Assembly (NCBI GenBank): GCA_030068145.1
Contig: JAPJBO010000194.1
Coordinates: 234,287-298,286 of the forward strand
DNA from: Diplonema papillatum
Taxonomy: Eukaryota > Euglenozoa > Diplonemea > Diplonemida > Diplonemidae
Reading direction: 5' to 3'
Length of the DNA stretch: 64,000 nt
Made by a program: the position numbers and the translations under genes. Shown piece by piece: positions 2,864 through 60,629 of this stretch; position 1 is the stretch's first letter, and each line of letters begins with the position of its first letter. The notes below the pieces were generated by a model. The model was not told the origin of the DNA and made no database searches. It saw only the letters and a list, made by a program, of their open reading frames with translations.

Positions 2864-4066
2864 GCAATCACGACACAAAGAGATCGCAGGATATCCTACA
2901 AAAGGTCGGTCTTTCGTTGCCTTAGTGTTTGTCCTATGTTTGAGCTGTGAGAGTGCCCGCCTTGGTCCCCCAGAGTAGGAAGCCGGAATGCATCCCGCCT
3001 AAACGGTACCCATGCCAGATCCCAGAGAGTCTCTCGTTGCCTCAGCGTTGCTGCCCTTTGACTGAGTGAACCGATGCCTCTCGTCTCTAGAGTTTCACCG
3101 GACACTCAAGCTTTTGTTGCGCTAGCGGGGAGCTGTCGACAAGCATGGATTGGAGACTTCTTCGTGTGAATTCTTCCATGGGCTGCGATGAAAGCGCAGC
3201 AGTGAAACGCAAGGCAGGCTGGCGTACTCATCTAAACGTACACAACTACGGTACTACCTGTGTCAATAGCCCGCATCACGATATCTCGTGATGTTCTCAT
3301 TCGACGAGTTGATGCCGCCCATCCAAACCGCTTAGAAAGAGTTTTTGTACGCGTAATTGCATTTCCCAAGCAGCGTCAAGGACCGAACAAGGTTGTGTTG
3401 TTTGTCCCCTCTCTAGCCTTCGTCGAAAGAAGCACCGGGCGACCCGCTGCTGGGACCTCTGATCCCGGAAAAGTCCCTGCCGAACGTAGCTAAAGCAAAT
3501 GGAGCCTAACGTCCTTTGCCGGTGTTGAAGTCCGGCCGCATTACTTACGGCATCCCTCTGTTTTGGCCCTCTGCTTCCGTTCGCAACAGGGATCAGCGAC
3601 GAGTGGTCCTACACACCGCAGTAAGAGCAGCACTGGACGCTCTGGACTGGACCACCTTCCCTCCATGCGAGCTCCGGAAAACCTTCCTGCAGGGACTTTG
3701 CACAAGTGAACGCGAGCGAGTACCCACGCTTGAAATCAATAAATGAGAAAGAAGCATAACGCTAAAGTGTATGATTTCCCGGGGAGGGGGTCAAAAAAAA
3801 AAAGGGGTCGAAATCCACCAATCTGTGCCCATGTGGGGGATCGTTGGAAGCCGACGAGGGCTGTTCCAATCGAATACCAGCCCAGCGCCGCGTGGGTGCG
3901 AGCTTCAGAGATTGTGGCACGCAATCTGGAAGCCCAGATGGTGCTGCCGAGTTGATAAGGGAACCGGGTTCATACCGAGCGGTTCACCCTTTCCGAAGTG
4001 CACTATCTATCGGCCGTTTCCTCCTGATCTATCAGGGCCTAATTTGGGCGAATTCAAAAGATACTA

Positions 4067-4403
4067 CTAAACCTGCTGTTGTAGAAAGTACTCGAGGCAA
4101 CCGCCACGTAGACTGTCCAAATCCAGCAACCCACACCTGATTCGGATCCAGGTGTCAAATACGGACTCATTGGGTATGTGGGCTTCTGTGTGTATAGCCC
4201 AAGGAACGCGTGTGGGCTTCTCGAAAGAAGGTTCCAGGACCCCCAAGACCATGAATCACTAGTTGGCAAAACCTCAAGTAGCCCACAAGGGCAAATCTGG
4301 GTTTAGCGCCGGGCGCAAGCGTTCCAGAGGACCCATGTGCAGGTTTCTCTTTAGCCCCGTCGAAGCATGCACCGGGCGACCCCACGAGTACTTCTGTTTC
4401 CCC
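4067..4403 (+). repeat. Diverged copy of the intronic AAATACTYGAGG element
   Basis: Starts with GTAGAAAGTACTCGAGG, contains CAAATCTGGGTTTAGCGCCGG and GCGCAAGCGTTCCAG, and ends CGGGCGACCCCACGAGTACTT. These match the order of blocks in the copies at 11694 and 41108, but with extra internal sequence and many substitutions. Confidence 0.5.
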
Positions 4404-5794: not shown

Positions 5795-8546
<2,752 letters not shown>

Positions 8547-8863: not shown

Positions 8864-9539
8864 ATGGCACTCACGCGAACCGGCGTTCTCGCCTCTGAGT
8901 TCGAGTGCCTCTCAGAACTATACTCTGTTCACCGTGCGCATTGTTCCTGCGAAGTACGCTGTCAAACCCACCTGCAGGTCTCTTCGTTCCTCGCAGAACT
9001 GGCGAAGTCGGAGCCGCGCGTAACCGGCCTTGCCGCAACCACGGTTAAGCGCTCTGAAGAGCTTCCCCTCAGTACCTACCTTGAGAGTGCGGTATGCAAG
9101 TTCTTATTCTTTGGTGAGTGGGCACCCGCTTTCGTAGGAAGTACTCGAGGAGGCTGCAGTTGCAAAGCACGAAAGAGAAAATGTTTTGGGTCGCCCAGTT
9201 GTGGTTGTGTTGTTTCCCCCCTTCTAAATGTTCGGCGGGATACGGCATCGTGCACTCTGCTGCAGCTGTGTGCTGCTCTTTCAAGGCGCACCTCTTTCTT
9301 TTTTGAATCGGAAGAGACTTGACCCCAGGAAAGCAGGCTTAAGGGCAGTGTTCTGCCGTGCTGTCAAACTGAGTTTTTCCAATGCGACGCAGATCCCCTC
9401 TGAATTCAACAAACACTATACACATACGTTGCAGATGGACGGAACGCTCGACCGGTATTACGCGGAGGAATTGGCTGGAGATGGCAAGGTCAACACGCGA
9501 GATCCGGACAGCGAGGAATTCAGTGTCCACTTCTCGTGA
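8864..9539 (+). CDS. Doubtful small two-exon gene
   Basis: A frame from Met 8864 (MALTRTGVLASEFECL...) runs to a good 5' splice site TTG|GTGAGT at 9114. A second segment after TTGCAG at 9434 reads MDGTLDRYYAEELAGDG... to TGA at 9537-9539. The two segments do not join cleanly in one phase, so the model is incomplete. The intron contains a diverged copy of the intronic miniature element starting at the splice site. No family recognised. Confidence 0.25.
9114..9238 (+). repeat. Diverged intronic miniature element (copy 9)
   Basis: Reads GTGAGTGGGCACCCGCTTTCG, then TAGGAAGTACTCGAGGAGG and AGTTGCAAAGCACGAAAG, ending near GTTTCCCCCCTTCTAAATG. Block order matches the 11694 and 21406 copies. The left edge coincides with a plausible 5' splice site. 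Confidence 0.5.
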
Positions 9540-11271: not shown

Positions 11272-11666
11272 ATGTATTACACGGGTTTGGACGACTCTTT
11301 TGGAGTTTCGGACCATGCTTTCGGGAAGCAGATCACGTCGCCGTACCGGCAGAACCCGCAGCCGTCCTTTAGCGACCTTGAAGCCGAGTACCACAGGCTG
11401 CGGAAGATCAACTTCGACCTCCGCTTGCGGCTCATGACCATGGAGGAAGAGCTGCAGGCACTCCAGCTGTCTCCGGAGGTGACCGACGCGTTGCTCGACT
11501 TGACCGAGCTGAAAAGCACGAACCGGGGCCTGCAGCAGGAAGCGAAAGACATGGCCGAGGGCATGGCGGCGCGGGACCAGCTCCTGCGGCAGCAGCTCGT
11601 CGTCATCAAAAGCCTCGAAGCGGAGCTCGTCGCGGCGACGAGCAAAGAAGCCGACGTGGGCAACAG
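11272..11666 (+). CDS. Exon 1 of CM1 gene: CM1 motif
   Basis: Starts MYYTGLDDSFGVSDHAFG after GGGAGGC. The CM1 core lies at about residues 33-61, with the NFDLRLRL block corresponding to the family's NFNLKLR. It continues as coiled coil and ends GGCAACAG|GTTCGC (phase 2). An in-frame upstream Met (11197) adds a Gly/Arg-rich stretch with no family support. Confidence 0.75.
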
Positions 11667-14600
11667 GTTCGCCTACTTGAAAATTTCTTTTTTGTATAAG
11701 CACCTGCTTTGTAGGAAATACTTGAGGAGGCTGCCAGCTGCAAAAGATCAAAGGAGGTAAATGTGCTGTAGCCCACACGAAACACGGGTAAAGCTGGGTT
11801 TAGTGGCGGGCGTAAGCTTTCAACAAAAAGACCCACTTTGTAGTTGTATTGTTTCTCCCCCTCTAGCCTCCTTCGCAGTAGGCACAAGGCAGCCCCTCGA
11901 GTATTTCCTAACGAAAACGGAAAAGGAAATTGATCTTCATCCCCGGTCAACAGACTTGGAATGTCCGACCTTCTAATCCACAAGTATTCGAAGAATGGCA
12001 GATAATCCGGTCACAAGATTCTAACGACAATAGCCACAATGTATTGTGTGGGAAAGTTGTGGGTGCCACAGTACTGCCCAAGGATGTAACGCTACAGGAA
12101 GTGCGACATTGGGCGCGAGAGGACACTGGTGTTCCGTGTATAGCTAGAATGTAAATTTAGAAGAAAGCGCACAACAAACAATCATCCAGCTACGCCAACC
12201 GAATGGCTACCGTTGAGCAGCAGCTCGATGAAGAGACTCGCAAGACCAGGGACTTGCAAGAGCAGAACAACGAGCTGCGAAGGGCGATGAGTCAGTTGGA
12301 CAGCAGCAAGCATTCCCTCGAGAGCGGCGAAGCTGAAGCGCGCAGAGCTGCGGCTGAGGCGAGCGAAAAGTTCGAGCAGGTGCGATACGAGAATGACGAA
12401 CTTCTCCGCCGGATCGATTCTCTGTTGGCGCAGGCAGACGCTGAGGCAGAGCGGCACGACAGCGAAAGGAAGCTCGTCGAGGACCAGCTTGCCGACGAGA
12501 CTGCCGCCAGAAAGCAGCTGGAAGCCCGAGGCCGCAAGCTGGAAGACGACGTAGTCGACATGGAGGCCGAGGTTGTCATTTCCACTCTTTTTTCCCACCA
12601 CAACGGGGTTAAGCTGGATCCAACCCAGACCACTCCAGCATGGTTCTGGAACGTAGGGGAAGCGCGACACCTACCCTTTGCGGGTGCGTGTGCCTGACCA
12701 GTCACTAAGCTTCTCGTGTTTCTTGTAAGTACAAAAGGAAGAGGAGCAAAGCGCGGCTATATGAGCAGGAGGAGCGAGGTGGAGCTGGGTCTTCGGTAAC
12801 TGCGTAGATCCGGTAGCACTCCCAACTAGCCCGAATTAACAGGAAAGACTGTGAGTCGCACGCTCCTCATTCTTGTCAGACGCTGGTCCACTCCGAAGTT
12901 TGAATCAGGAGTACGAGACTTACACCACGAAAAGCGAATGAAAAGCGTGCTTTCTCGGCTCGTACACAAATGTGGAAGGAAATGAGATCGGCGAGGTCTC
13001 CATCAGGTACCCGTTTTCGTGAGCGTGTGGCATGGTAACGATCTAACGCGCACAGGTCACGAATCTGAGGTCTCTGCTCGAAAACGAGCGAGCAAAAGAC
13101 AGCAAGCAGTCTGTCGCCGAGCTGGCCACATCGAAGCGTGCGGCTGAGCGATTGGCGAGGGATGCGGAGCTGAATCTTCAGGGTGAGATGAACAAGCTCC
13201 GCGAAGACCTCTTCGACAGTAAGGAGCAGGTGTCGCTGCTGGAGGCGAAAGCAGCCCGGCGCGAGGTGCTGCTCAAAGAGTATCAACAGTATGCCTGCCT
13301 GCCTTTGCGCTACTGATTCTACCGACTCTCGGTTGCTCTACAATGTATTGTGGAGGCCGACTGCCCAACCAGGACCTAACCCCAAAATGACGCCATAGAC
13401 GCTGAAATGGCCCTGAACCGAGCCTACCCTCAAAAAGTGCCACCGCAAGACCTCTCAAAGGTCAATACTCTACACAAATTGCGTTGCTTACAGTCTCACT
13501 GCGGGAATGCTGCTGCGCAGTCGTCAAGCCACCCAAGAATCAGGTGGTTGGGGGGGGGGCCAGGGGGGGGGTGTCGTTGGACGGGAAGAAAACCCACCCA
13601 CCCTTCCCCCTGTGACCTTGTCCAGACAAGCTTGTTTCCGGAAGTCCCCTGGACGGGTATTTTCAATCTTGCCCTCCAATGGCGCCTGCACTTTACTTTG
13701 CTTTGAATTGCCCGTTGCAGCCAAGGTGTCCGCTACGCTTGTCGGGGGCTGGTAGTGGGCCGGTCCATCCCCTCTTGATAGACCGTGATAGACCGAAGAA
13801 TACAGCACCGGGCAATTCGATGCAGCTCTAGGGACTAGGGATGGACCTGATAGACCGTGGTGAACCGTGATTCACTGTGATAAACAGCGGCAGGCACTTC
13901 GATGCGGTTTCAAGAGATAGGGACGGACCGGCTCACTGGGAGGGCAGATACTCTTGCGGGCTTGCACCGACTTGAAGTTGTGTATGATGTCACTCGATTG
14001 ACCTGTTTCATCCACACACCGCGTGTTATTGCTCTCAATGCACACGCAGGACCCTCGCGGACATGGAGGCGCAGCGCAACGTGTCGCTGCAGAAGATAGA
14101 CGAGTACGTCTTCAGCCTCGCCGAGCACCGCGGCCGGGTCAACGACTTGGAGAAAGAAGTCGCGCAGCTGGTCGACGGCCGGAACGCCGACGCCGAAAAG
14201 CTAGGCGCGCTGCAGGACGAGATCGCGAGGGTCGTCCAAGACAACGACGAGCTGCGGGCCGAGCTCGAAGCGGCCGCCGACGCCGCGGAGTTCGGCGCAG
14301 ACGCGCTGCCCGAAGAGACGCCTGTGCACGGCGACCGCATCGATCAACAAGCAGACGACGACTACGAGGAAGAATACCTCGAAGAAGACGTGCACCCAGT
14401 GTACCGGCGCCCCGATTGGAGCGGCGGCGAGCACTCGGATGCCGAGGAGGACCCCGACGGAGCCGCCCGCGGGCGGCGGCGGCTGGTGCTGGAGGAGCAC
14501 GCGCAGTCGTACGTCATCGAGCGGCAGCTGTCGCGGCAGGGCTCGTCCCCGAGGCGGTTCGACGTGGTTGACACCTCCCGCTTGGAGCCCCGCCCGGAGG

Positions 14601-17600
14601 TTGTTTCCGTCGTCAAGAAGCCGAAGCGGAAGAAGCACCCCGACTCCGCGTCGAGTGTGCACAGCGAGCGCCGCGTCACCATTGCGCAGGGGGAAGACGA
14701 TGCTGAGGTGTGTCTCGACAGTCTTTGTTTCTGCGCAGATCTGCACGCAACGAGCCCTTTTCGGATGCATTCTGAGTGTTTGTTGAAGCCCTTAGGAGAT
14801 TCACGTAAACATAGCTGTACTCGCTCCTTTTGGACTCGTATGAAAACAAGGGATCAGTGGATTTGGAAGTTTCTGTTCGCCAAAGCTAGTCATGGCCCGA
14901 CGCATGTGCCCTGGGCAACTCGAGACAATGTTCCGGCTTAGTGGCGTACAACCAAATCATCCGGTTGTAGCATCACGGCACCGTCCGATCGAACAATTCG
15001 TAGAGGGGAAGACCTGTAACCCGGGGCTTCGGCAGTGCTTATTATTTTGTATAAGCACCTGCTGTAGGAAATACTTGAGGAGGCTGCCAGCTGCAAAAGA
15101 TCAAAGGATCAAATGTGATGTCCACACGAAACACAAGTGAATCTGGGTTCAGTGGCAGGCGTAAGCGTTCAACAAAAAATTATTCAGCTTTAAAGCAAGG
15201 GTGGGCTCTGACAGAGCTTCAACCACGTTACACACACGCACAGGAAACGGAGTTCGAGGAAGAAGAAGAGGAAGGGCAGCTGAACTCGTACCAGTTTCCG
15301 GACTTGTTGCCGGAGTTGGAAGTCAGCCATCGGGGTTTACAAGGGCCCCCTACTCTTTTTGAGCGCCGAAGGGCTTCGAAGACAGGGACTTCAAGCCCTC
15401 TTCCTGTGCCGCCGTCTCCTTTGGCTTCTGCAATTCAACGGTCCAACGCGGTGCTCTCTGCCTCACTCGATAAGTATGCTTGAATTAGACTTCGTCCCTC
15501 TCACCGCAGGGGCATGTGCAGCACTTGAGGATAGCCGGTCAGGCAAGAACACAAGTTTCGTGATGCTCACGAGCCAAAGCCGGAAAGGCAAGAACACAAG
15601 TTTCGTGATGCTCGCGAGCCAAAGCCGCTTAGTGCAGGACGCTTTCCCACCTGTCCACCAGGAGTCTTACCCATGGCGCCCAATTGCGCGAGCACCGGCA
15701 CTAAACCGCTTTCGCCTATAAAACCCGCGAGTCTTCCGTACAGCGCTGAACACATTGACACCTCTAAACTACAGAGCGCCTTCGCCCATCGTGCGCCGCG
15801 GGGAGTCTCAGCAGGACTTGATGAATTCGTATCACCGGTACGCAGTGCTTTTCTTCAAGCGCGTGAGCGCAAGTTCTGGTCACCTGATTGCACACGTGAG
15901 CTCCTTTGGTTCTGTGTTGTGGTTCGGCGAGTGCGTGTGCGCACAAGTTCGTTCTGATAGCACACTCAAATCAAATTGCAAACCTTCCGACTCAAGCAAC
16001 ACCGCAATCCCTCTTTTCGCGTATTCATTCCTTCCCGCCTCCACTCCAACGGTCAACCAGAGATTTTGAAAACCCGGAGTTCCAAGCGAACCTTCGCTTC
16101 CACACTGCACAAGAGATGTTTCATGAAAAACGCGAGCAACCGGGTCTCAAAAGGCATAGAAGGTGCGTGGTGCGCCCAAAAGGACATTCCAGCATTTTTT
16201 CCGACCTTCCCCTCAGACGGCAACACAAAGTCGGCTAGCCGTAGTTAAAGTGTTCAAGTATGCCTACATCCCTCCCACCCACCCGAAAACAACCGAACCT
16301 TTGAAACCACAATCAACGCTACAAATCGCAGAGCGCTCGAACGCACCTCGTCCGGCCGAGCTGGGGGAAGGAGCACCGAGCCGTTGACGCCCGTGCGGCG
16401 GATGGTGTCTGGCGGGGTGCAAACGAGCCTCACGCCCCGGGCGTCGCCGCGGGGCGGCGGGACGCCGCTGCAGCGGGCGCAGTCGGAGCAGGCGCTGAGC
16501 CGGCAGGGCTCGCGGCTGTCGGCGAAGAGCAAGCAGAACGAGTCAATCCAGCCCCGGACGCTGTCGCCGTTCTTCCGAGAGACCTCCACCCGCAGCTTCC
16601 TCAGCAGGCAGTCGTCAGGCATCTCCCAGTCAACCGGACCTGCACAAGAACCTCGCACACTGACGCCTCTACCGAAAGGGGGCGCACGCAAAGCGTTGGC
16701 GAGAGATCTGTCGTCTTCTCGACTCTCAGCCGGCGCGCCGCAGCGTACCCTCTCTCCCCTAACCCGTACAGTCTCGGGTCAGCCTGGGACACCTCAGCAC
16801 CAAATCCGGACGTTGACCCCTTTGGTGAGGAACTATTCAGGCTCGCCCAGGCAGGCGCTCAGTCGTCAAGGCTCTGCGCAATCTCCCCTCGAAGCACACC
16901 GCACCTTGAGTGCGAGGGGGACTCAGTTCGTGGACTCGCCCGTTGCGGCTCGCAAGACGCTGAGCATGGTGGGATCGCCCAGGGCTCAAGAATACCCCGC
17001 GGGGAGAACCCTCAGCAGGCAAGCGTCCAACCATTCGGCGGACTTCTCCGCGGGGTCTCCGGGGATGCAATCGCCGCGGGGGCAGTACCCAACGGGCAGG
17101 ACACTGAGCAGGCAAGGGTCGCGTGGCCAGGAATACCAAGGAGGAGGATCTCCAAGGAGCCAAGATCACTCCCCTCGCTCGCCGAGGGAGCAAAACTACC
17201 TAGCGGGAAGAACCCTGAGCCGGCAAGGGTCCAGGGGCCACGACTACGGCGGCGGGAGAACTTTGAGCAGACAAGGATCCAGCCGCTCTGCGTCGGCGGG
17301 ACCGGCGAGAGCCGAAAGGCCGCTTCGCACTCTGAGCCGGCAAGGGTCGGTGCGGTCGAATTCTGCGAGAGCGCCGCTGGTGCGGACACTGAGTGGGGGT
17401 CCAGGGACTCCTGTGTCTGTATATCAGCAGCCGCAACACCGGACGCTGAGTAGGCAGCATTCGCTGCGCTCTTTCAGAGACGATGACGAGTCGTCGGGCT
17501 CGCCGGTGGTTCGGACGATGAGCGAACTTGCTCAGCCGACGCGTCAGCCCCGGACACTTAGCAGGCAAGGCTCGACGTCTTTTGCGGAGGACCGCCACCT

Positions 17601-20600
17601 GATCATCCCCCTGTACGCGACCCTCAGCGACCGGCACCGATCGCACAGGCTCAGCCGAGCCTCGTCCGCCCGCTCCCTGAGTCCGAAGCGTGTGGCCACG
17701 CAGCAGCACAGAACCCTCAGCCGGCAAGCCTCTTCGCAGTCCATGCACTCCCCCGGGGCACGCCAGCTGAGTCGGCATGGATCCGGCCGCTCGCTGTCGC
17801 CCGGCTACCTGGCCGCGACCCCCAAGCGGTCGGACACGCAGCTGAAGGCGGAAATGCTGCGGACGCTGGGCGGCGACGGGTCTCCCGGCAGCGTCGAGCG
17901 GGAGATCGGCGGCGTCGGCTTCGGCGCGCGGGCATCGCCGCGCGCCGAAGCGCTGTCGCCAGCGGGCCGGAAGCCGGCCGACTGGCGCCCGATCCCGCCG
18001 GGGCTCGAGGGTTACGCGACGTCTTACTTCCTACCGAGGGCTGATTCGCCGCTGCCGACATCCCCGCACAATGTCCTTAACGACTCGGTGGGCGGGAGGT
18101 CGGATGTGGTGTATGGCCTGCCGCCTGTCGTGAGGCAGACCTCGACGAAGGCGGTTTCGCCGCGCACGCCGTTGCGGGGGGGTGAGCAGCGCACGTTCGG
18201 GACGCAGATGACGCGGTCGCTGTCCGCGTCTTCCGTGGCGCGCCGCCTGCACCCGGATTCGCCGGGGAACATGCAGTCCCGCACGTGCTCGCCGATGTCG
18301 CCGTACCTCGAAAGGCAGCAGCAGCAGCAGTCCACCTTCGGCCGGCCGCCGTCGCCGCGCCACGAGCCGAAGCAGCGGGATCCGCTGTCGACGCCGGAGC
18401 CGCTCCGGTTCGACCGCACGTCGTCCGCCCGCTCGGACATATCCACCTTGACCGCGGACCGGTCGACCTCTCGGTATGACGCTGCGCACACGCGAACATT
18501 TTGGACGCGCAATATTCCCGTCTTCTTTTGGTACTACCAGGGGGGGCGATAATTACGACTTCTTTTTAGCATTTGCATGCATGCTAGCATCAACCCTGCA
18601 TAAGAGGCAGGAGTACAGCCTGAGTCCTGTGAAATAGCAAGGAGTTAACCAACATGGCTCGTCGAGGAAATACGAGACACCCTCGCTCTCAACTCGTCGA
18701 GGAAATACGAGACACCCTCGCTCTCAACGGAGTTCGAGCTCTCCGAAAGGTTTTCGGGTCGCCTCACCTTACCCCGTACTCCTAAGGCGGGAGTAGGTCG
18801 TTCCGTCGGTACTTCATTCAGGGTGTTCTACGGATATCCGGAATGCGGCGCAAGCTGCTTGGGGACAACTGGCGTCAAGGTACACGTCGTGGAATGGAGT
18901 ACCCACTCCTGGAATGGCCATTCCAGGAGAGCAATCCCCCGTCGGGTTTTTTTTGTTGAACGCTTACGCCCGCCACTGAACCCAGATTCACCTGTGTTTC
19001 GTGTGGGCTACAGCACATTCCCCTCCTTTGATCTTTTGCAGCTGGCAGCCTCCTCAAGTATTTCCTACAAAGCAGGTGCTTATACAACAAATTGTTCTCA
19101 ACCTGACCATTCACGACTGTCCGCGCCCGTTCAAATGACCGAGCACGATCCGCAAGTCGGGAAACATATCGATGTATCCACTGCGGAACAGCGGTCACCA
19201 AAGCTGGTTCACCAATCGTGGGAGAAATAGGTCTCAGAATCCACATGAGGCATTACCCCCAAAACCCAAACCTGAAACGGTAGCATACCCAGTTTCACTG
19301 GAGTGCCTGTTCCCGGCGAGCTACGAGGGAACGAACCTGTAAGAGTGCCACCGCTACTCTTTCTACAGTGTGGTCTATTCATGATAACCAGCTACCTACC
19401 TCCCCATCTTAAACACGGGGGCACTGTAGACTACCATGTAGTCGCCTTACACGGGAGTACCTCACCCCCGTGTCTAAGATGGATTGGCATTCTCGCCCGT
19501 TATCCATCTTAAATCAAGGGGGTTTGGCTATCCATCTTATGCACGGGAGGGGGGTAGGTACGTATGTGAGCGTCTTTTTACTACCTGATAATTAGGCTTT
19601 TTTCAGAATGTGACCAGCTGGTTCAGACTGGGGGCAGGCCGGGGCCAAGGCACCCCAGAAACTGTATTGTGGGTTCGTATCCACGACAGGGGCTCCTCAG
19701 CGACACCCCGGCGGCCCATTTCTGACATTTTGAGGGTCCGTGCCACCGTTCCAGGGAGGGGTCACAACGGGGCCGACAACGGCGGGCCCAAAGCGGGCCC
19801 TAGAACGGGCCAATATGCACGTAATGGATGCTAAAACGCAATAACCATCCAGGCCCCTCCCCGATCACCCCCCCCCCCACCTTTACACCATCCAGAAAAT
19901 GAAAGTGCTGGCCACCTTGTTGGACGAGTACTAGTATCAAATAACTGTTATTATTCGACCCCCCCCTTTATCACATGCGGAGAGAGAGAGAGTATGTGTG
20001 TGTGTGTTGGAATTCAATTTCGGGTAACCCCTGAAGCGGAGGTTGTCAACATCCTCACGTCACAGCTGGTCGTGGTGGCCACGCTCTGATCTAAACTGCA
20101 GCCTCGTTTGGTTAAGGCTCCCTGCTCCATGTCCCATGTGCTGCTAGTATAAAGGGGGGTGTTACGGGATAGCCGGCAGCCGCTGCTTAACGACAGTGCA
20201 TGCTGATCCGTGCTTTATCTTTAGCCATACTTCAACTCTCTTCGTATATACCAAGCTTTTCTTCACCGCAGGAGACGCTCGCCCCAGGGCAGGCAGGCGA
20301 TCGATATGAGCACGTCACCGCTTGTGCCTCCTTCGCCGGAGGCGCGGGTCGAGCTCTTTGGCTTGCACGGGCCGACGATAACGCTCGAGCGGGAGCAGTC
20401 CGTGCAGCGGGGCGAAATCGCAACGTCGCCGATGGTTTACCCCCGCAAAACAACGGTGCCCGTCTTCTCGATGGACGACGACATGCAGAGCGTGCGCTCG
20501 ATGGGCAGCACGCAGTCTATCCGGTCTGGTCGATCTGGCAAGTCGACGCGCTCCGCGAGAGCGGCAAAGTATGCTTTTTTATGGTAACAAGCTTGCTTGT

Positions 20601-23600
20601 CTATATCAGAAAGTGTCGGATGGCAGCATGATGTGTTAAATCACTCAAAACAGGGTTTACACACGTACGCACATTTCATCGGCTCTACAACCCTCACGGT
20701 GCTCTAGTCATTGGAAAAACAGTGCGATGACTAGTCATTTTACAGGTGAAAATGGCTTACTGATGCACTAGTAAGAATGATTATTGGCACATTGGCCACA
20801 CGGTGCACCCTATCGCGAGGTTGTTATCAGCTCTGTCGGGGTTGGGCTGTCCCCGCTTGGTAGGTGGTTTGTACTGCCCTCACTCCTTGCAATCACTCAG
20901 GTAGGTCCCGGATTCGTGAAGGGCATGGGTGGTGCGGCCCCGTTCCTTGCTGAGCCACTTCAGGACTACCGAGGACTGAACGCTTGCTGTTTCGAAGAAG
21001 GCTTGGTGTAGGAGTACCCTGTCCAAACACTAAACCAAGATTTCCCCCCCCCCCCTCACTCGCTTCGTTCCTGCACACGGCAAGACCTGCCATTTCCACC
21101 AACCAACTTCCTTTCGCTGCAGGTCCCCAGACGAGATCCGCCGAAGAGCCGAGAAAGCAGCCGCCGACATGCTGCGAACGTTGTCGCCCGGCCTGCGGCC
21201 CGCGGAACCGCAGCTGCCCAGGACTCTGTCGTACCGCAGAGAGCCGTCATTCCCCAACCGGACGCTCACGCCAAGGATGAACCCGGCGCACGTGCCCCGC
21301 ACGCTGTCTCCCGGCCTTTCCCCCCGGGACAACGGCATGCAGCGTACGATGTCCGAGCTCATATCCCCGGAGCTCCTCGTCAGATGTATGCACCCGCTTT
21401 TTTTTGTGTAAGCACCTGCTTTGTAGGAAATGCTTGAGGAGACTGCCAGCTGCAAAAGATCAAAGGAGGTAAATGTGCTGTAGCCCACATGAAACACAGG
21501 TAAATCTGGGTTTAGTGGCGGGCGTAAGCGTTCAACAAAAAAAGACCCACTTTGTAGTTGTATTGTTTTCTCCCCCTCTAGTCTCCTTCGAAATGAGCAC
21601 AAGGCAGTCCCTCGAGTATTTCTCTGGGCTACGAAGACTTTCGGACTCCGTCTCCTCCATCACGCGGAAATCGTCAGCGCGATATCGGAAAGCGGAGAGC
21701 CTACCAAATAGTACCCGTAGCTAAATTCGCTAACTTGTTCGGACGAACCCGCATGGGATTTCGAAGCTTTTTAAAATACCCACCAGACAAGCCAGAAGAC
21801 GGAGTGAAAACCGGTGTGCGCGACGGAAAAAGAGGAGTGAAAACCGGTGTGCGCGACGTAAAAAGAGAATAGGCGGATGTCTCAATTCTTCCGGACAAGA
21901 CTAGACGCCAGCGTCAAGTCACGGGAGGCAGTGTCCAGCCTGAACATCAAACGGAGGGTGGCACTCAACAGAAATTGAAACCAACAACGACAGCTCTCTC
22001 TTCAAAAAGCATGGCCGGGTCAGAGGCCAGAACCCCGCGAAATGTGGACCGCAGCATATACGACGACATGCGTCGAAGCTTCGAGGATGAACTGGACGAA
22101 CGGGAGCGGCAGTTGCAAGAGAGCCTGTACGCGTTGGAGGTGCGCGAGAGAGACGTGGTAGAGTATGCGGATCGACTATCGTGCGCGGAAGAGGAATTAG
22201 CCGCCACGGAGGCGCAGCTGGCGGAGATGGAACACCGGTTCAACGAAGCCGAGCACAGGGCCACGCAGGCCGAAGAGCAGCTGGTCGCAGCGGACGACGA
22301 GACCCGGGCCAGGCACGCTGAGATGGAGGAGAAGTGGGCTGAAGTCGCGCAGGTGTGGTTCTTTTCTTGTGTAAGCACCTGCTCTTTTGTAGGAAATACG
22401 TGAGCTGCCAGTTGCGGAATTACAAATGTAAATGCGCTGTAGCCCACACCGACAGTCAGGTAAATCGGGTTTAGTGGTGGGCGTTTTGAGTTGTTTCTCG
22501 CCTCCGTCGGAATAAGGCAGCCCCTCGAGTTTACTCACTAACAAACATGCTGGTTGTGCTTAATGTATTGGGAAAAGGCTAAAAACCGCAGACAGCTTGG
22601 GGTTTTGTGTTAACAATGCATTGTGGATACTAAGAATTAGTAAAGGGGGGGTCGAATAAAACCTGTGTTATTATTCGATTTGTCGAATAATAATAAAAAG
22701 TTCCGAAGCCGAGCGGTAGCAGGATCAAATAGTGGTAGTGTTGTTAGACAACCTGACGTGTGTCAAATAACTGTTATTATTCGACCCCCCCTTTAGTTGA
22801 CAGCGTGATACATGAAACTTGCAGGTGAGTTCCGCTAGCGCGGACAAACTAAAGAAAGAGCCATACAGTATGTTTCGGCGGTGGATCAGAATTTCTACCC
22901 AACCTGACGAACTTTCACTCTAAACCCGCAGGAGAGGGAGGAACTGCTTCGTGGTAAGGAGGCGTTGCACCTTGCTTCGGTCGCGGTTGCGTCAGAAATC
23001 TTCCTTCGCCCCGAAGACATATCCGAAGCCTTGCCCGACGACGCCGTCGTCGCCGCGTTGCACTCTTCTGTCGCCTGCGTGAACGGGCTGCGCAGCTTGA
23101 TCGACCAAGGCACCTCGTCCCTTTCCGCAGCGATGGCCACTGCCACCGACCAGCTTTCCCAAGCACTCGTTGCGCAAAGGAACCGCGTCGAAGTGGCCTG
23201 CGCTGCCGTGCGCAATCTGCAGCAGGGCCTTCTGGACCAGAAGAGAAAACATGCTCAACGCAAAGCGGAATCCGACAAGCAGATCTCATCCCTGCAAAGC
23301 TGCATCGCCGACATGGAAACGGAGCTGGCCGAGGAGCATGAAAAGAACCTGAGTATGCCCAGTTTGTGTGAAGCCCTAATATGCACGGACACATTAGCAT
23401 CTTGCGAGCATTACACGCATGTTCGCGCCTGGCACACGCTTGCACGTTCGCACGTCCCTTTGCCGACGTAAAGACGTACAATCGGTACAACCGGTTGCTG
23501 TGTCTACGAAGGAGCATGCTCAAGTGTATTCTCCCACCCGTCCCTTGGAAAGGGGAGTTCGCACAGTTTCGTATTTGAAAACCCTTGCTCCTCCGGTTGG

Positions 23601-26600
23601 ATATCCTTCCGCGTGATTGGCACACGGAAGAGGGTACCCCGCAGAAGTGCTTCCTCCTGCGAGTCAACGGACCCTCTTTTTCCGTAGCGGGAAGAATTCA
23701 ATTGACCGGCCCCCCTCGCAACCTCGCAAGGACAGGAGCAAGGGGGTCCTGTGATTCTCCACGGGACCCCGACGCTCGCTACGTCGTAATAAAAACCCAA
23801 ACGAAGAATAGTCTCTTCTTCCTCGATCGTCTTCCTCCAACGTCTCATTGTACTAGGCCGGCGCAAAAACCAAAGGGATGGGAAATAAGATTTCACCACT
23901 TCACGAGCGTCTGCCTCGCTGCAAGTTAGCACCTTCTAAGGCAGCTTTCGAAGTCGCTTCACGAAACATGCGTTCGTGCTTTCGCGCCCCGTGAACTGCA
24001 TACACGATCTTCTTGTTAAGCGAGTTCACGTGTTATATAACACGTGACCAACGTGTAAACACGCAACATGTGATCACATAGAACTAGAGGCAGTGTTCTA
24101 CCGAGACATTAACCCCACACTTTTCTCCCTGCTAAAGCTTTCCCCAATACACCCAGGATTGCAAGACGACAAGCTAAAACTCGAATTCGAAGTACAGAAG
24201 CTGTCGACGGAGCTCCGTTCTTTGGACTCCAACTGCGAAAAGCTGAGGAAGGACAACCTGCGCTGCCGGGCCGACTTGTCGGTGTCCTTGGACCAGGTGG
24301 CCGGGCTGGAGCGTGCGACGAGCCAGCTGCGTGTTGAGAAAGAGAAGGTGTGTATTCAATAATACTTTACAGCTACGCAGCCCGGACGCCTGCACGATAT
24401 TGTCCATTTGTAGTTGTATTGTTCCTCCTGCAGCCTCTGTCGACACAAGTTGATGTGTTCAATGGCTCAGAACAAAGGAGACGGGATCGTTGCAAGCAGA
24501 GGCTTCTGGCCGCCGAAGGTTGAGCCGATGTGTGGCGGCGGTGGTGCGGGTAAACTATTCTGAAAGTAAATAATGTTGTCGACAATGAGCAAAGAATATA
24601 CCAAAATCACGCATTTCTTTGAAATACGGGCAATCACTCGCAGGCGGTAGATGAGTCGCTCCAGCGAAGCCAGTACATGGAGAAGCAGAAGGCGGAGTTC
24701 TCGGAGCTGATTAAGAAGGCAGCCCGGGCAGATGAGTGCCTAGCCGGCGGGCTTGACACGAAGCTGAAGATCTTGCACGAGACGCTGACGGCTGGCCTCG
24801 GAGGGCTCAAAGATTACTTCGAGCAATGTGGCTGGTGGGGAACAGAAGCGCTGGGGCTCTCGAAAGTGTTCCTCTCCAGCGTAACCACCTGCACCGGAAG
24901 GTGCGAACAGGTCCGCACCTTTCTCATTTTAGCTATGACCTTGATTGATCGAAGAGAGATCCTCTTTCATTGTGAGTTTGGAAGTTCCCACCGCAGAAGA
25001 CCAACCTGTCTCACGACGCCTAGTACGCGGGCCGTTTTCAAGCCCCGAGACAACTCCCTGGGCGCTGTCCTGTCTGCAGACAGTGCCCCCCTGCTCCCAG
25101 TAATGTTGCGAGCTACGAACAGCCGCCTGACAAACCAGACTCACGCCGCTGTCCTGTCTGCAGACAGTGCCCCCCGCTGTCCTGTCTGCAGACAGTGCCC
25201 CCCTGCTGTCCTGTCTGCAGACAGTACCCCCCTGCTCCCAGTAATGTTGCGAGCTACGAACAGCCGCCTGACAAACCAGACTCACGCCGCTGTCCTGTCT
25301 GCAGACAGTGCCCCCGCCGCTGTCCTGTCTCGGCTCGTGCAGCCCTATGTTGAATTCATGTACGCGATGTCGACTTCCCAAGGTGTAGTCGCATCATTTA
25401 GGTGTTTAATTCAGCTAATCCCGAGCAAAGCCCCGGCAGGAGCGCGGATCTCCACCAAACCGGATCAGTCATTTGTTTCTGTTCAACTCGTTTGGCTGGA
25501 GAGCGCCCTGCCACTGCTCGCCGGGACTGAATACCCGTGTAGCAAAGCATGCAGGGGGGGCATGCCAGGCTGATGCCTGAGGTGCGAGGCGCGGCCCACC
25601 TGAGGGGGGGTCTTCGCACGCCGATCGACGGTGCAGCTGTTCCAGCTGAGATCCGTCCTGTCCAGTACTTGACGTGCAAGCCGTGGATATTCGTGTGGTG
25701 CCTGGCCAGCGCCTTATCATGACGAGACTCGCTTGGCTGAGGTCCGCCGCGCTCGGCGGCAGCTCGCCTGGTTGGGGTCCGCCTGGTCGCTGACGTGCAG
25801 CTCGCTTTGGCTGAGATTCGCCGTGCCACGTGCACGGCGTGCAGCTCGCTTGGTTTGAGATCCGTCTGGCCTCGATGACGTGCAGCTCGCTTTGGCTGAG
25901 ATCCGCCGTGCCACGTGCACGGCGTGCAGCTCGCTTGGTTTGAGATCCGTCTGGCCTCGATGACGTGCAGCTCGCTTTGGCTGAGATCCGCCGTGCCACG
26001 TGCACGGCGTGCAGCTCGCTTGGTTTGAGATCCGTCTGGCCTCGATGACGTGCAGCTCGCTTGGCTGAGATCCGCCGTGCCACGTGCATGGCGTGCAGCT
26101 CGCTTGGTTTGAGATCCGTCTGGCCTCGATGACGTGCAGCTCGCTTTGGCTGAGATCCGCCGTGCCACGTGCACGGCGTGCAGCTCGCTTGGTTTGAGAT
26201 CCGTCTGGCCTCGATGACGTGCAGCTCGCTTGGCTGAGATCCGCCGTGCCACGTGCATGGCGTGCAGCTCGCTTGGTTTGAGATCCGTCTGGCCTCGATG
26301 ACGTGCAGCTCGCTTTGGCTGAGATCCGCCGTGCCACGTGCATGGCGTGCAGCTCGCTTGGTTTGAGATCCGTCTGGCCTCGATGACGTGCAGCTCGCTT
26401 TGGCTGAGATCCGCCGTGCCACGTGCACGGCGTGCAGCTCGCTTGGTTTGAGATCCGTCTGGCCTCGATGACGTGCAGCTCGCTTTGGCTGAGATCCGCC
26501 GTGCCACGTGCATGGCGTGCAGCTCGCTTGGTTTGAGATCCGTCTGGCCTCGATGACGTGCAGCTCGCTTTGGCTGAGATCCGCCGTGCCACGTGCATGG

Positions 26601-34060: not shown

Positions 34061-35668
34061 TTTGCAAGAAAGAAAAAAATAGGTACGCTGTTTGTCGTGC
34101 GTGCCTGGAAGATTAGTCTGTTGGCGAGTGAAGATAATCGTCAGGCTAAACTCTTCTCAAAAACGTTGCCAGCTAAACTCTTCTCAAAAACGTTGCCAGC
34201 GTTCTCTTTCGAGTTTACAACTCATTGCTCCTACAAAAAAAAAGGGGGCTCGCTTGCCAGATCCGTCCCGCCGGCACCAGCTTCTTTAGAGCCCCGAAAA
34301 TCGCAAACGTGTTTTGTCAAGTTCTTTTCTTCTGAAAGAAAACTGAAGTGTGCACCCCCCACCCTGCCTTTACATCTCTCGCACGCCCCACTCTTTGTTG
34401 GTAATAAGAATACTCGGAAGGGCGAGTCGAGGGGTGAGAAACAACACAACTCCGAATGGGTCATTGTCAGTGATTGTACCTGTTACATGTGTATTACAGC
34501 GCACTTCCTCTGTGGTATTAGAGCTCTTAACACTTAGCGGTATGGTCCTTTGACAGAGTGAGCCGATGCCTCTCATCTCACCTTTTAAAACACGACTGAG
34601 TCACGCATGCTCTTGACAGACGCTAGCGTCCGACATCGTCGGGTGGGATTTATGGGGTTTCAGCGGACACTCGCTCTTACCGCTTAGTGGGGACCATCAA
34701 TATGCAGGTGAGTATCAGTATCACACTGTGGTCACAGCGCATTTCCTCCGAGGATATTTTCAACTGGCGGCCTTCCCGAGCCTCAGCGAAAGCATTTGTT
34801 ACGGGTAACACATTGCATGCAACAAATTCCGACACGTTTGCGTAAACCCAGCCATGTGTGCAACAAATGGGCCGTGCGTCTTCCCTAGTGTTCACACCCC
34901 ACCATCAGGGCTGGCAGCGGCCACCTAGATCCGACCGTTCTTTCCTGTGTTTCCAAACAACACAAAAGTGGACGAAAAGGAAAAGAAAAGCATGTTTCGA
35001 CCCCCTCTTAACCCCCCCCACAGTTAGACGACTACCGAAATTCAAGCTAAATTTCGCTTTAGAAAAAGCTAAAGTTCAAAATATCCTTTTTCTTTTCCGT
35101 TCCCGTTCAGCAAGCGAGGTGTCTATACCGCTGTCACGAAGTAGGGAGCGCGGCGCCGTGAATTCCTAGCCACGTGCAATGTGTGAGGAAACTGAACCGC
35201 CTAACTCAGACACTCGCCACCTGAAACCACGTCCAGAATTCGAGCTCAAGAGTACGAGGCCTGTGAGCGGTAGCGATGTAGCGATGACCACGGCTCATGC
35301 AGGTGGAAAGAGGCCTTCAGGGAGCCGCCCCGGATCGAGCCTGACTGGCGGTGGCCGTTTGATTTGGACTGATGGTGCACTTTTCTCTCTTTCTCGGCTC
35401 TTCGGCTTCAGATTGACATCTGAATGACGCCTCAACCCAAAGAAGTGTTGTCGGGCTGTTGTTTTACATAAGCGCCGGCTTGGAGTGAAAAAACAACATA
35501 CGGTGGTGTAAGCGGAGACCAAATTAGTAGATTGTGTTTGTGTTGTATCTTTCATTCGGAGTCAAAGCAGCTCCGTCGAGTATTCCTCCGGCCACCGTCA
35601 AATACTGGCCTTTAAAAAAAGGCAGGGAGTGCTGGGGGAGGTTGGGTGGGTCGCAGGGAAGCCTGCCG
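34061..35668. other. Intergenic between CM1 and RCC1 genes
   Basis: No supported gene. Holds a 26-bp direct duplication (TAAACTCTTCTCAAAAACGT, 34145 and 34171) and AT-rich stretches; the rest is unremarkable. The promoter of the RCC1 gene should lie near 35400-35668, but no clear core motif is visible. Confidence 0.45.
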
Positions 35669-40390: not shown

Positions 40391-41107
40391 GGAGGTGGCT
40401 GGAAAATATATAACGGAAGCAGCGCTTCCGTTATACATCTTCCGGACTTAAGTGCTTCCCTTAAAGTTAAGTCCGTTCTTAGTAAAAACGATTGCTTGCC
40501 ATCGGAGGCAGACGGCTTCGCCCGCGTGGATGACCCCCCAGTTTTCAATAGGACAAGTCTTTTTGCTCCCAGAGGGTTTGCGTGGTTGCTCGCAATCAAT
40601 GAATCTCCAATCAAGTTCGGCTCAAGCGCAGGAAGCTTAGCCCACACTTCTTCGTCGTCAGGCTGATGACACTAATGACAACCCGGAGAGCACAGGTTTC
40701 TTATGGCTTGACCGAAATGGAATGTCAAACGCACCGAGGAAGCAAGACGGAGTCAATCTGCCGGACCTAGTAGCTATACAATGCTAGGGCGACGGCACAA
40801 ACAATCTTTTCATTCCACCTCGAATCCCTGCGAGCCGCCAGGTATCAAAGGGCCGTGGCCAAAAGATCAACGAAGGGTTTAGAAAACTGTGCACCCTGTA
40901 TACAAGGCCTACCTGAGATCAACTACCCTGAACCTGTTTCGGATAAACACACCGAGCCCCGGTTGTGTTTTTCCAGGTTCCAGGGAGTTTGGCGTTTTCA
41001 CATTTGTTCTTGATAGTGGGGCGACCGGATACTCTCCGGAGAGATGGTCCCTGCACTCTAACTCGTCTCTCTCTCTCTCTCTTTCTCTATCTCTCTCTTC
41101 TTTTTTT
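40391..41107. other. Non-coding stretch with hairpin and CT-core repeat
   Basis: ATAACGGAAGC..GCTTCCGTTAT (about 40409-40433) is a strong short hairpin. At 41021-41095 is part of the CT-core repeat seen at 2298. One open frame (40316-40666) has no recognisable family. Confidence 0.5.
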
Positions 41108-41317
41108 GTATAAGCACCTGCTTTGTAGGAAATACTTGAGGAGGCTGCCAGCTGCAAGATCAAAGGAGGTAATGTGCTGTAGCCCACACGAAACACAGGT
41201 GAATCTGGGTTCAGTGGCGGGCGTAAGCGTTCAACAAAAAAGACCCACTTTACAGTTGTTATTGTTTCTCCCCCTCTAGCCCCTTCGAAGTCAGCACAAG
41301 GCAGCCCCTCGAGTATT
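41108..41317 (+). mobile_element. Intronic-type miniature element, copy 6
   Basis: GTATAAGCACCTGCTTTGTA, AATACTTGAGGAGGCTGCC, CAGGTGAATCTGGGTTCAG, acceptor-like GTTTCTCCCCCTCTAG and right end CCCCTCGAGTATTTT. Nearly full length. It lies just upstream of a possible exon. Confidence 0.85.
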
Positions 41318-41341
41318 TTTTCATCCTTTCATCGTTCCAGC

Positions 41342-43957: not shown

Positions 43958-44309
43958 TAGCCTTCTGCTGCGTGTGACATCTGTGTGACCCCGCGAGACA
44001 GGCGGGAAGTCCTCCTCTTGACAACAAACAACCAAAAAAGATCGATCGAACGACGGGGTCGTGTGTAAAAACAAACCGCCCCAAACCCAACGTGAGTCCC
44101 GTCGGCGGATTGCAGACTGGACCGGGAGGGGAAGGGCCGGCTATATACATTTACGTTGAAAACAGTGTTTTCTCCGGTCGCCCGGTCTTGAAATCCGTCT
44201 GGCGCCCGACTACGGCTCCGCGTTGAACCAAGTCTGACGCGAGCGCACTTGTTGCCGCTGCAATGCTGTTTGACCTATGTTTTTTTTGTTTTTCTTTTTC
44301 TTTGAAAAC

Positions 44310-44525
44310 AAAACGCTCTGCTTTGTCCCGGAATACTCGAGGAGGCCGCCAGTTGCAAAGTCTCAACAAGGATCCAAATCTTAGAGGAGGAATTGTTCAG
44401 CAGCCCACACGAAGCACACGTAAATCTCGGTTGTAAGCAGACAACCGAAAAGACCTTTGCAGTTGTATTGTATCTCCCACTCTAGCCTTCTTCGAAATAA
44501 GCATTGGGCGACCCCTCGAGTATTT
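44310..44525 (+). mobile_element. Intronic-type miniature element, copy 7 (diverged)
   Basis: GGAATACTCGAGGAGGCCGCC, AGCCCACACGAAGCACACG, acceptor-like TATCTCCCACTCTAG and right end GCGACCCCTCGAGTATTTT. No exons are recognised on either side, so intronic location is unproven here. Confidence 0.7.
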
Positions 44526-44991
44526 TGAAAAGACGTAGGCAACGTGTTTTTGTGGTTGATCAGTATTCCTAACCTGAAAACTAAACAGGGTGAAAACAAG
44601 TGGGAAATCGAGCAACTGGCACAAACAAACAACCCTGTTTTTCTTTTTTTTTTTCACGTCAAAAAAAGAGGTTCAGGAAACAGCGTCCCGCTTGAGAAGA
44701 ATCCATACATGCTGCGATCATGTTCACGTGCCAGGCATTGCGACCCCAAAGATGTTGACTAGAACATCGTCGCAACAATGCATCCCAGTACACGCGGGTC
44801 TGCGGCATTTCTTCCTTTGTCGGCATTCCGTCCCCGGACGAGATACATACGTGAGCCGGCCCACCTCCATTCCCTGGAACTGCATCGAACTGCCTGCTGC
44901 TGTCGAGCACAGTCAGTGTACGTGCGAAGCGGCAGATTATCGCCGCCAATTCTTAGCACTCTGATCCAAACCTATGAGTCTATCAACGGGG

Positions 44992-59531: not shown

Positions 59532-59821
59532 GGGTAAATTAACGTTCTCCTTGTCTCTGCATCCGGGTGCGGAAACATCTGAACAGTTGGCAGTGGTCCG
59601 ATTCGCGAGAATCTGCTGGTAGTCTTATTCCGACAACGACGAGGCGGATGATTTGGATTTCCAAGCTCCACTGTGCTACTGCGCGGGGTCCTGGGAAAGA
59701 CCCGGTTGTTGGCACGCCTTGGCGAGGACGCGGACTATGTGCCCGCTTCGGAGTGCTGCTTTCCACTCCGGTTTCTTGCTTTCACGAAGCTCAACGAGCG
59801 AGTTCAGCACCGGGAAATGAA

Positions 59822-60064
59822 AAAATACTCGAGGGACTTCTTTGTTCTCATTTCGAAGGAGGCTAGAGGTGCTCATTTCGAAGGAAGCTAGAGGGGGAGA
59901 AAACAATCTAACAAACTACAAAGCGGGCCTTTTTTGTTGAACGCTTACGCCCGCCACTAAACCCAGATTTACCTGTGTCGTGTGGGCTACAGCACATTTA
60001 CCTCCTTTGATCTATCGCAACTGGCAGTCTCCTCAAGCATTTCCTACAAAGCAGGTGTTTATAC
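59822..60064 (-). mobile_element. Intronic-type miniature element, copy 8 (reverse)
   Basis: Minus strand: GTATAAACACCTGCTTTGTA, AATGCTTGAGGAGACTGCC, GGTAAATCTGGGTTTAGTGG, acceptor-like GTTTTCTCCCCCTCTAG (duplicated together with CTTCCTTCGAAATGAGCAC) and right end GTCCCTCGAGTATTTTT. Closest to copy 4. No host exons recognised nearby. Confidence 0.85.
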
Positions 60065-60629
60065 AAACAATGACACTTCATTGAGGAGACGGTAACATTT
60101 TGTCTTCTTGATTCCCTCTGCGTGGAACTACTAGTCACACTGGCTACACCGCGATGGAGTCAGCCGAAAACGAGAGCAAGACGACCAGTCCAATTCGCCG
60201 TTTTGCAGAGGACAATGCACGTGAAAAGACTCGTGACCGGAAGTATTCATTTAAGCTGTTTCTGTAGCCGTGAGTCGAGTCGTATGACTACTCTAAATGT
60301 ATGCTAGCACACAACTGGTGTTCCGCCAAGTGGTGCTAAAAGTGCCCGATGATAAAAGCGGCCGCAGTTGTTCTTCTCGTGCCTTTCTCGCCCTTCTCCA
60401 AGCTTCTTCCCTCACGTTCGCCTCTTGTTTCGATCTGCATACTACAGCGCGAGCAGCGTAACGCTGGTGGTTTTGCACTTTGGCAGTGCATGTTGCAGAT
60501 GATACGATGCAGGAATGCCAAACGATAGCAGTCAACAGCCAGCCTGGGCGCCGTGTAGAGATTAGCACATCTCCCTTTCAGTCAATTTCGCTGAGCTGTT
60601 GAGTGACCCTTTCACACTAAGCCAAATTT

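Follow-up and report, generated by a model that had tools for sequence, protein, structure and literature searches.

The described systems closest to the repeat examined here are of several kinds. HINE/DINE-1 elements, the non-autonomous Helentrons, are small, non-coding and present in many copies, with inverted repeats unequally distant from the ends, a palindrome near one end, and T-rich targets in which the number of Ts varies and no target duplication is made (PMC4067079). Helitron2 elements of Fusarium have asymmetric inverted repeats, ends like ATTTT and tandem insertions, carry identified Rep-Hel genes or originate from them, and have had their T-rich insertion sites compiled (PMC5148889). 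Introners as portrayed in PMC9860276 are non-autonomous elements with inverted repeats, mostly in sense orientation, in introns of an aquatic protist. The inverted-repeat introners of Amoebophrya live in unidirectional gene arrays with trans-splicing and have inverted and direct repeats at the exon/intron borders (PMC7789003). Hemistasiid diplonemids, hosts related to the present one, have non-canonical introns with paired ends and no GT-AG, and a MITE-like origin is discussed for them (PMC12621601).

The genome of the marine flagellate Diplonema papillatum contains, in thousands of copies, a mobile non-coding repeat of about 216 bp with asymmetric inverted repeats. In this genome the core of the dinoflagellate spliced leader has 0 matches and a core of the kinetoplastid/diplonemid type has 628, and a dinoflagellate host was rejected. 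It was noticed in a 64,000-nt stretch of DNA, here called the window, where an earlier note had listed eight copies of an element of about 220 bp, and two diverged ones. All eight are found in the window sequence, with spans set by a family profile, and size and non-coding character are likewise borne out. Five lie in a gene with a Pfam Cnn_1N match in its first exon, here called CM1, for which the ab initio model (11329..24865, +) gives exons and 12 introns between 11667 and 24643, where the note had counted 15 introns; its tally of five introns with a copy, four of them sense, is reproduced by the model. Full copies are found at 11684..11910 (+) in intron 11667-12189, with the profile start 17 nt past the donor GT, and at 21397..21624 (+) in intron 21386-21993, starting 11 nt past it. 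An internally deleted copy at 22357..22538 (+) starts 4 nt past the donor GT of intron 22353-22931. The copy at 15037..15179 (+), in intron 14708-15243 and far from the donor, has no right end and stops at an internal A-run, and profile and gene model place an antisense copy, also without its right end, at 18942..19091 (-) in intron 18474-20271.

Outside predicted genes, profile and gene model give a full copy at 41096..41323 (+) and a diverged full copy at 44290..44530 (+), and the family profile gives a full antisense copy containing an internal duplication at 59819..60072 (-). The two diverged copies also stand. One is the left part of a copy at 9105..9196 (+), with a donor-like GTATGC, by score, about 20 nt upstream. 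The other, at about 4067..4398 (+), has family-type ends, a profile match at 4278-4398, and a foreign segment (4107..4260, +) just inside the left inverted repeat. A weak fragment at 3391..3445 (+) covers family profile positions 168-221, and repeat comparison finds a fragment of a related family, B, at 35482..35586 (+).

Exact genome-wide matches number 2,827 for one inverted-repeat motif and 5,483 for the other. An exact 20-mer of the inverted repeat occurs 1,405 times on the plus strand and 1,422 times on the minus strand, where its reversed control gives 0 and 0, and within the window the motif with up to 3 mismatches matches 10 times against a shuffle mean of 0.01. In the consensus of 49 copies, inspected by eye, the left inverted repeat begins about 20 nt inside the element, after GTATAAGC and a small palindrome, while the right one forms the extreme end. 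The inverted termini of the earlier note are present as repeats but are not both terminal. Both repeats are readable in 38 of 49 copies, and complementary changes in these run 31 G/C, 4 A/T, 3 G/T and 0 A/C. Many truncated copies share an internal A-run as their endpoint; because the left motif served to choose the loci, left-truncated copies escape a fair count. An Rfam scan of element copies from six sources returned no family at its cut-off.

Element copies sit in T-runs, the run at one end being of varying length, and at loci L045, L046, L050, L037 and L027 they form head-to-tail chains with a short T-run at the joints. A target-site duplication extending beyond Ts was seen, at a score of 6 or more, in 0 of 52 cases, with 2.4 expected, in a search that an all-T duplication would escape. 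A search for empty sites by joined flanks yielded one usable site, most other spans being element-in-element matches; this paralogous, element-free site carries a T6 run where the element would be inserted. In sum, this miniature non-coding mobile element enters T-runs and has asymmetric inverted repeats and a small palindrome near one end.

These features bear on two conventional classes. A SINE-like retroposon inserted antisense would show its poly(A) tail as a T-run, as the variable T-run at one end and the copies that have no opposite end might suggest; we hold this highly unlikely, given that the target-site duplication which a SINE would leave along with its A-rich tail was not seen, that the inverted repeats are paired with complementary changes, and that so many truncations share one internal A-run. 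Neither were the terminal inverted repeats and fixed-length duplication of cut-and-paste MITEs found. A MITE could still escape notice if it duplicated only a few Ts, and inverted repeats, short length and a T-run on either side would suit it, but one inverted repeat lies about 20 nt from its end and a single T-run is shared within chains. We know of no superfamily with an all-T duplication, and regard this origin as unlikely.

The element resembles non-autonomous Helitron2/Helentron elements, of which it is a putative member. Asymmetric inverted repeats, a palindrome near one end, a T-rich target and the absence of a visible target-site duplication are all present, as are the small size, many copies and varying T number of the HINE/DINE-1 description (PMC4067079). 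With Helitron2 of Fusarium, it further shares ATTTT-like ends and tandem insertions (PMC5148889). The Helitron_like_N profile has 68 matches in this genome, most with long open frames, and none in 14 control genomes. The foreign segment 4107-4260 corresponds to a single unit of a 192-bp tandem array; the contigs with this array contain Helitron_like_N genes as well. The segment may link the copy to Helitron-associated DNA by capture or nested insertion. That one shared repeat unit is the element's only link to such DNA, in contrast to Helitron2 of Fusarium. Four stretches beside Helitron genes (L063-L066) were read and contain no autonomous partner with the family's ends; the family profile gives five sub-threshold matches only in them (E = 0.16-0.30; one short tandem motif in L066). 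The element also differs from HINE/DINE-1 in being strand-uniform and clustered behind donors. A non-autonomous Helitron2/Helentron-like element, moved in trans by the genome's Rep/helicase genes, is a tentative proposal to which we would give not quite even chances. Against this step, the T-run flanks the end that has the hairpin and the inner inverted repeat, a polarity opposite to that of published HINEs (PMC4067079).

Copies are found in introns and between genes, with an excess just behind the intron start. In a sample of 69 copies, from which locus L018 was left out for a strand call based on one weak segment, short predicted introns hold 19 copies against 10.3 expected (p = 0.005), about twice the density of other sampled non-coding DNA. 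The earlier note had asked for intron enrichment, and this is the excess it meets with, a modest one based on ab initio gene models at loci chosen around copies. Copies just behind a 5' splice site are strongly over-represented in the sample: of the 14 intronic copies that are sense-oriented and have an intact left end, 9 begin no more than 17 nt from the intron GT, none begins within 30 nt of the acceptor, and 0 of 20,000 random placements were as extreme as this clustering. Independently of gene models, a donor-like site precedes the element in 27/85 cases versus 62/667 windows. T5 runs occur at 5/38 element-free intron starts and in 306/5,254 background windows. T-runs near donors are insufficient as the sole cause, with a donor-like site at 14/41 T-runs that hold a family element versus only 36/313 that hold no repeat.

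Our overall reading, which we favor by somewhat more than even chances, is a Helitron-like mobile element of T-runs, landing in introns and spacers that already exist and over-represented behind donors. It enters T-runs and leaves no detectable target-site duplication. It would land in introns and in the spacers between genes of one-way arrays; since the sequence ahead of it is intron-like, the introns were probably there first. The donor-side excess would arise either from insertion favored behind the 5' splice site or from loss of copies elsewhere. The host intron would be spliced by its own GT and AG, with the element carried along.

The main question is then whether the element made any of these introns, as the earlier note considered when it proposed an intron-creating or intron-dwelling family with a built-in 3' splice site. 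On an introner reading, the element or its ancestor would have entered exons and made introns using a donor just upstream or its own GTATAAGC, with an acceptor within the element or beyond it, and later insertions would have lengthened them. The starts close to the donor, the sense bias, the initial GT of the element and the CTCTAG and CTCGAG near its right end speak for it. With +1 assigned to the G of the donor GT, GTATAAGC/GTGTAAGC starts at +17 (intron 22353), +21 (intron 21386) and +28 (intron 11667) in CM1, in agreement with the 16-28 nt given for three introns. But the predicted acceptor lies 62-1,186 nt past the element in all 14 of the sense intronic copies whose left end is intact, and 50 of the 69 sampled copies are outside short predicted introns. 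The stretch from donor to T-run has a per-codon score of -0.31, like element-free introns (-0.38) and not exons (+0.27), so the introns probably came first and the flanking GT, rather than GTATAAGC, is the likely donor. GTATAAGC as a real donor is accordingly not the best reading.

The motifs themselves, although GTATAAGC, a pyrimidine tract and CTCTAG are there at the two ends as described, do not look like functional splice sites. In a local donor/acceptor model, A makes up 4% at each of the two positions occupied by AA in the element, and T makes up 4% at acceptor -3, which is weak evidence from 36 predicted introns seeded with our own start values. Identity to consensus is 0.923 for GTATAAGC and 0.891 for CTCTAG against 0.919 overall, so neither is extra conserved. 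A built-in 3' splice site is not upheld. Introners as described in PMC9860276 differ in that here similarity does not extend to both splice sites, introns run far past the element and many copies are outside predicted introns. The repeated intronic elements with inverted repeats recall Amoebophrya (PMC7789003), but the present element lies in the interior of GT-AG introns; GT-AG also sets these introns apart from the hemistasiid ones (PMC12621601). The evidence is against the element as creator of its host introns, for which we see a slim chance; what endures of the proposal is a mobile, sense-biased and often intron-dwelling family.

Strand bias, the other property singled out in advance, is present: 44 of 50 copies are in sense orientation, a count that excludes L009 and L016 (no strand call) and enters L018 as antisense. 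At short loci the figure is only 14/20 (p = 0.12). The bias is not diagnostic of an introner because other dispersed repeats are equally strand-uniform (140/158, with L009, L016 and L018 set to plus as the other C1 loci are). The element, like other repeats here, is thus mostly in one orientation relative to transcription. Family F10 is mixed, and on contig C3 the left motif is found in 10 plus and 6 minus orientations. T-run targeting was rejected as the source of the bias, since the sense strand of non-coding DNA has T-runs and A-runs in about equal numbers (ratio 0.81-1.23).

Selection by itself would have T-runs entered at random, with antisense and deep-intron copies lost through wrong RNA signals (spliced-leader acceptor, poly(A)) or through double-stranded RNA formed with sense copies. 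The uniformity of several unrelated families fits this, as does a sense fraction of 23/28 in high-scoring and 21/22 in lower-scoring copies, yet the bias is already there in the high-scoring copies, F10 departs from it, and no reason has been shown why a copy would be harmless 5-30 nt behind a donor but not in the rest of the intron. We judge it somewhat unlikely as a full account; it is also one of the two branches within our overall reading.

A more specific proposal is that a group of small T-run elements, made up of this family, the related family B and others each met once in such a position, prefers to insert 5-30 nt downstream of active 5' splice sites, through exposure of the sense strand coupled to transcription or splicing. 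Since insertion would read the transcribed strand, the repeats of a polycistronic genome would all be oriented alike, and introns would grow from the donor end as chains of elements. We rate this as rather unlikely.

The outcomes of interest are donor-linked insertion or retention and the genome-wide strand uniformity of repeats, the mechanism of each being a proposal. If donor clustering holds genome-wide, insertion or retention would follow a rule linked to 5' splice sites, a point that bears on intron lengthening and on how mobile elements spare genes. Unrelated repeats that are strand-uniform across one-way gene arrays would be a readout of transcription direction shaping repeat insertion or survival, and they caution that, where a genome has polycistronic arrays, sense bias alone does not speak for introners.

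At locus L020, the gene finder set the donor inside the T-run (distance -2), and a better-looking GTACGC is seen by eye 15 nt upstream. Other repeats show a donor-like site at 8/46 of their starts, not significantly over background (p = 0.18). In the window, the start of another repeat family (ATGGTAACAAGCTTGCTTGTCT) at 20575..20620 (+) lies directly behind a donor GTATGC at 20569 and a T-run.

Genome-wide searches of the 271-Mb assembly (2,910 contigs) find 2,827 exact matches to the 20-mer of the element's left inverted repeat, a motif that covers one of two subfamilies only, and 5,483 to that of the right, with 0 for the reversed controls. Profile searches covered 53 stretches totalling 323,632 bases: the window (C194:234287-298286), together with 20 loci of 10 kb and another 32 that are shorter. 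The loci were taken around exact left motifs of contigs C1 (1,009,103 bases), C2, C3, C7 and C8, among the matches listed, a choice that leaves out left-truncated copies and most of the contigs. After merging, the stretches hold 109 element insertions, and 11 additional matches to family B, a relative of the element. The consensus, built from 49 near-full copies whose identity runs from 0.748 to 0.954 with a median of 0.907, opens with a T-run, then GTATAAGC, then a small palindrome, AAGC-ACCT-GCTT, recognized by eye, and continues with a 20-bp inverted repeat about 20 nt in, a body of about 150 bp, the second inverted repeat, and TATTTT. Paired changes between the inverted repeats, scored in the 38 of 49 copies with both repeats readable, comprise 31 G/C, 4 A/T, 3 G/T, and 0 A/C (p = 0.0005). 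An internal A-run is the stopping point of many copies. Short foreign repeats interrupt some copies at the pyrimidine tract that precedes CTCTAG (L057:868-976 and L027:6256-6504, in loci elsewhere in the genome), and LSU and SSU rRNA gene fragments are scattered near copies (L027:5357-5678, L021:9611-10000, L027:1-385). Directly behind one copy, on the opposite strand at about L013:5185-5260, is a segment that by eye resembles U2 snRNA.

Insertion is into T-runs. Head-to-tail chains of elements occur in five loci (L045, L046, L050, L037, L027), with one short T-run at each join, and chains also mix the subfamilies, and the element with family B. A 35-mer across one chain junction occurs 126 times in the genome, not every match being necessarily a chain. 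At one element-free paralogous site the insertion point is marked by a T6 run, and the right flank differs slightly. No target-site duplication beyond Ts was seen, with 0 of 52 flank pairs scoring at least 6 against 2.4 expected.

The genome is described as organized in one-way gene arrays, with a 108-gene cluster on tig00022654_12, in its paper (PMC10161547). By our codon model, nearly all coding is '+' in the C1 loci and the window, and '-' in the C2 loci at 132-276 kb, each with a few short opposite segments. The sense bias of the element, which the earlier note had offered as a test of the introner idea, is real, at 44 of 50 copies with a strand call in the window and 10-kb loci (p = 3e-8), 14 of 20 in short loci, and '+' at 20 of 23 places for the right motif on C1, but it is not diagnostic of them. 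Once the element, family B, and predicted coding are all masked, 266 pairs of other repeats common to loci agree in orientation relative to genes and 72 disagree. The dispersed non-coding families of L009-L062 and the window include 22 with at least 4 members, 158 in all, and 140 of these lie in the majority orientation of their family, against a null mean of 101; 140 was reached in 0 of 20,000 simulations. Seven of eight repeat seeds examined are nearly uniform and F10 is mixed, although some seed matches lie in one same locus and seed F11b, open almost full length, may be coding; a further family has six C1 matches at '+' and three C2 matches at '-'. T-runs and A-runs are roughly equally frequent in the sense strand. 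Strand bias is a property of repeats in these arrays, not peculiar to the element, and is therefore no mark of introners.

Introns, GT-AG for most, are reported in 41% of D. papillatum genes (PMC10161547). Our gene models are ab initio, from a simple gene finder with donor consensus AG|GT[AG]TGC that, once refitted, has 68 introns longer than 50 nt; CM1, the Cnn_1N gene at 11329..24865 (+), has 12 introns in this model instead of the 15 claimed previously. There is a modest excess in introns: of 69 copies in loci with strand (L018 left out), 19 are inside predicted introns of at most 1,500 nt, where length alone predicts 10.3 (p = 0.005). The other 50 are elsewhere, which may include introns of missed exons. 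Seventeen intronic copies are sense, and 14 have the left end intact, one being a family-B copy matched by profile. Their left ends lie -2, 3, 4, 4, 7, 9, 11, 11, 17, 249, 309, 329, 509, and 661 nt from the donor GT, with the predicted acceptor 62 to 1,186 nt away; random placement in the same introns put at least nine within 30 nt of the donor in 0 of 20,000 trials. Independently of gene models, a donor-like score of at least 4 is found directly before left ends in 27 of 85 windows versus 62 of 667 further upstream (p = 1e-7). Such sites precede 14 of 41 T-runs followed by the element, 36 of 313 without a repeat, and 38 of 462 A-runs; at the starts of other repeats the count, 8 of 46, is not significantly raised. 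Individual members of other families show the same donor/T-run arrangement (window 20574, L045:277, L058:446). The PPR-repeat gene at window 5777-8423 has an intron, 6526-7051, opened by a long GT repeat.

The proposal that the element creates introns with a built-in 3' splice site fares poorly. Both CTCTAG and the supposedly donor-like GTATAAGC fit the local splice model badly (36 introns, seeded with our own start values), and neither is conserved above the rest, at 0.891 and 0.923 identity versus 0.919 overall. Per codon, the stretch from donor to T-run scores -0.31 (39 codons, contributed by 10 of 11 cases), close in kind to element-free intron starts (-0.38, n = 27) rather than exon interiors (+0.27, n = 67). 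Being intron-like, it suggests from codon usage that the upstream GT is likely the actual donor and that the intron is likely older than the insertion. Beyond the element, there is more non-coding DNA with other repeats.

As to what moves the element, Helitron_like_N has 68 genome matches, most with long open frames, and 0 in 14 control genomes; Helitron-like ORFs are mentioned in the genome paper, and no mention of the element was seen in the passages covered (PMC10161547). Matches on C514 at 137092, 144246, 151400, and 159150, spaced by 7,154 and then 7,750 bases, have the regularity that a tandem array of Helitrons would give. The diverged copy at 4067-4398 has, just inside its left inverted repeat, a foreign segment (4107-4260) that is one unit of a 192-bp tandem array. 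Among the matches listed, such arrays follow Helitron_like_N on the same strand, starting about 5.2-5.7 kb downstream, on C9, C2610, C907, C585, C1468 (twice), C2771, C2172, and C2202; the array listed on C1491 is upstream, C2852, C1782, C2741, C736, C752, and others have arrays with no listed Helitron match, and L063 has one between two Helitron_like_N matches on C514. The unit ties this copy to Helitron-associated DNA, but the tie may reflect capture or nested insertion. A family-profile search for element ends beside Helitrons (L063-L066) gave five sub-threshold matches only (E = 0.16-0.30), all in a single tandem motif of L066. The layout is like that of HINE (PMC4067079) and Helitron2 (PMC5148889), but the T-run polarity is reversed. 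We lean modestly towards the whole explanation, a T-run mobile element, with Helitron-like movement within it, entering existing introns; Helitron-like movement as a claim by itself is rated slightly less likely than not. Searches of an open-access library turned up no published account of the element, the donor clustering, or the strand uniformity of repeats.

Exact matches to the spliced-leader core CAGTTTCTGTACTWTATTG number 628, and those to the dinoflagellate core number 0 in the same genome. The leader is described on essentially all D. papillatum mRNAs in the genome paper (PMC10161547). Its exon sequence occurs twice in L065 (about 615-660 and 1265-1305), beside a Helitron-associated tandem array. 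The window also has three arginine-kinase-like genes in tandem (48373-49647, 51552-52946, 53971-55365), none of them with an intron in the models and the first with a Pfam ATP-gua_Ptrans match.
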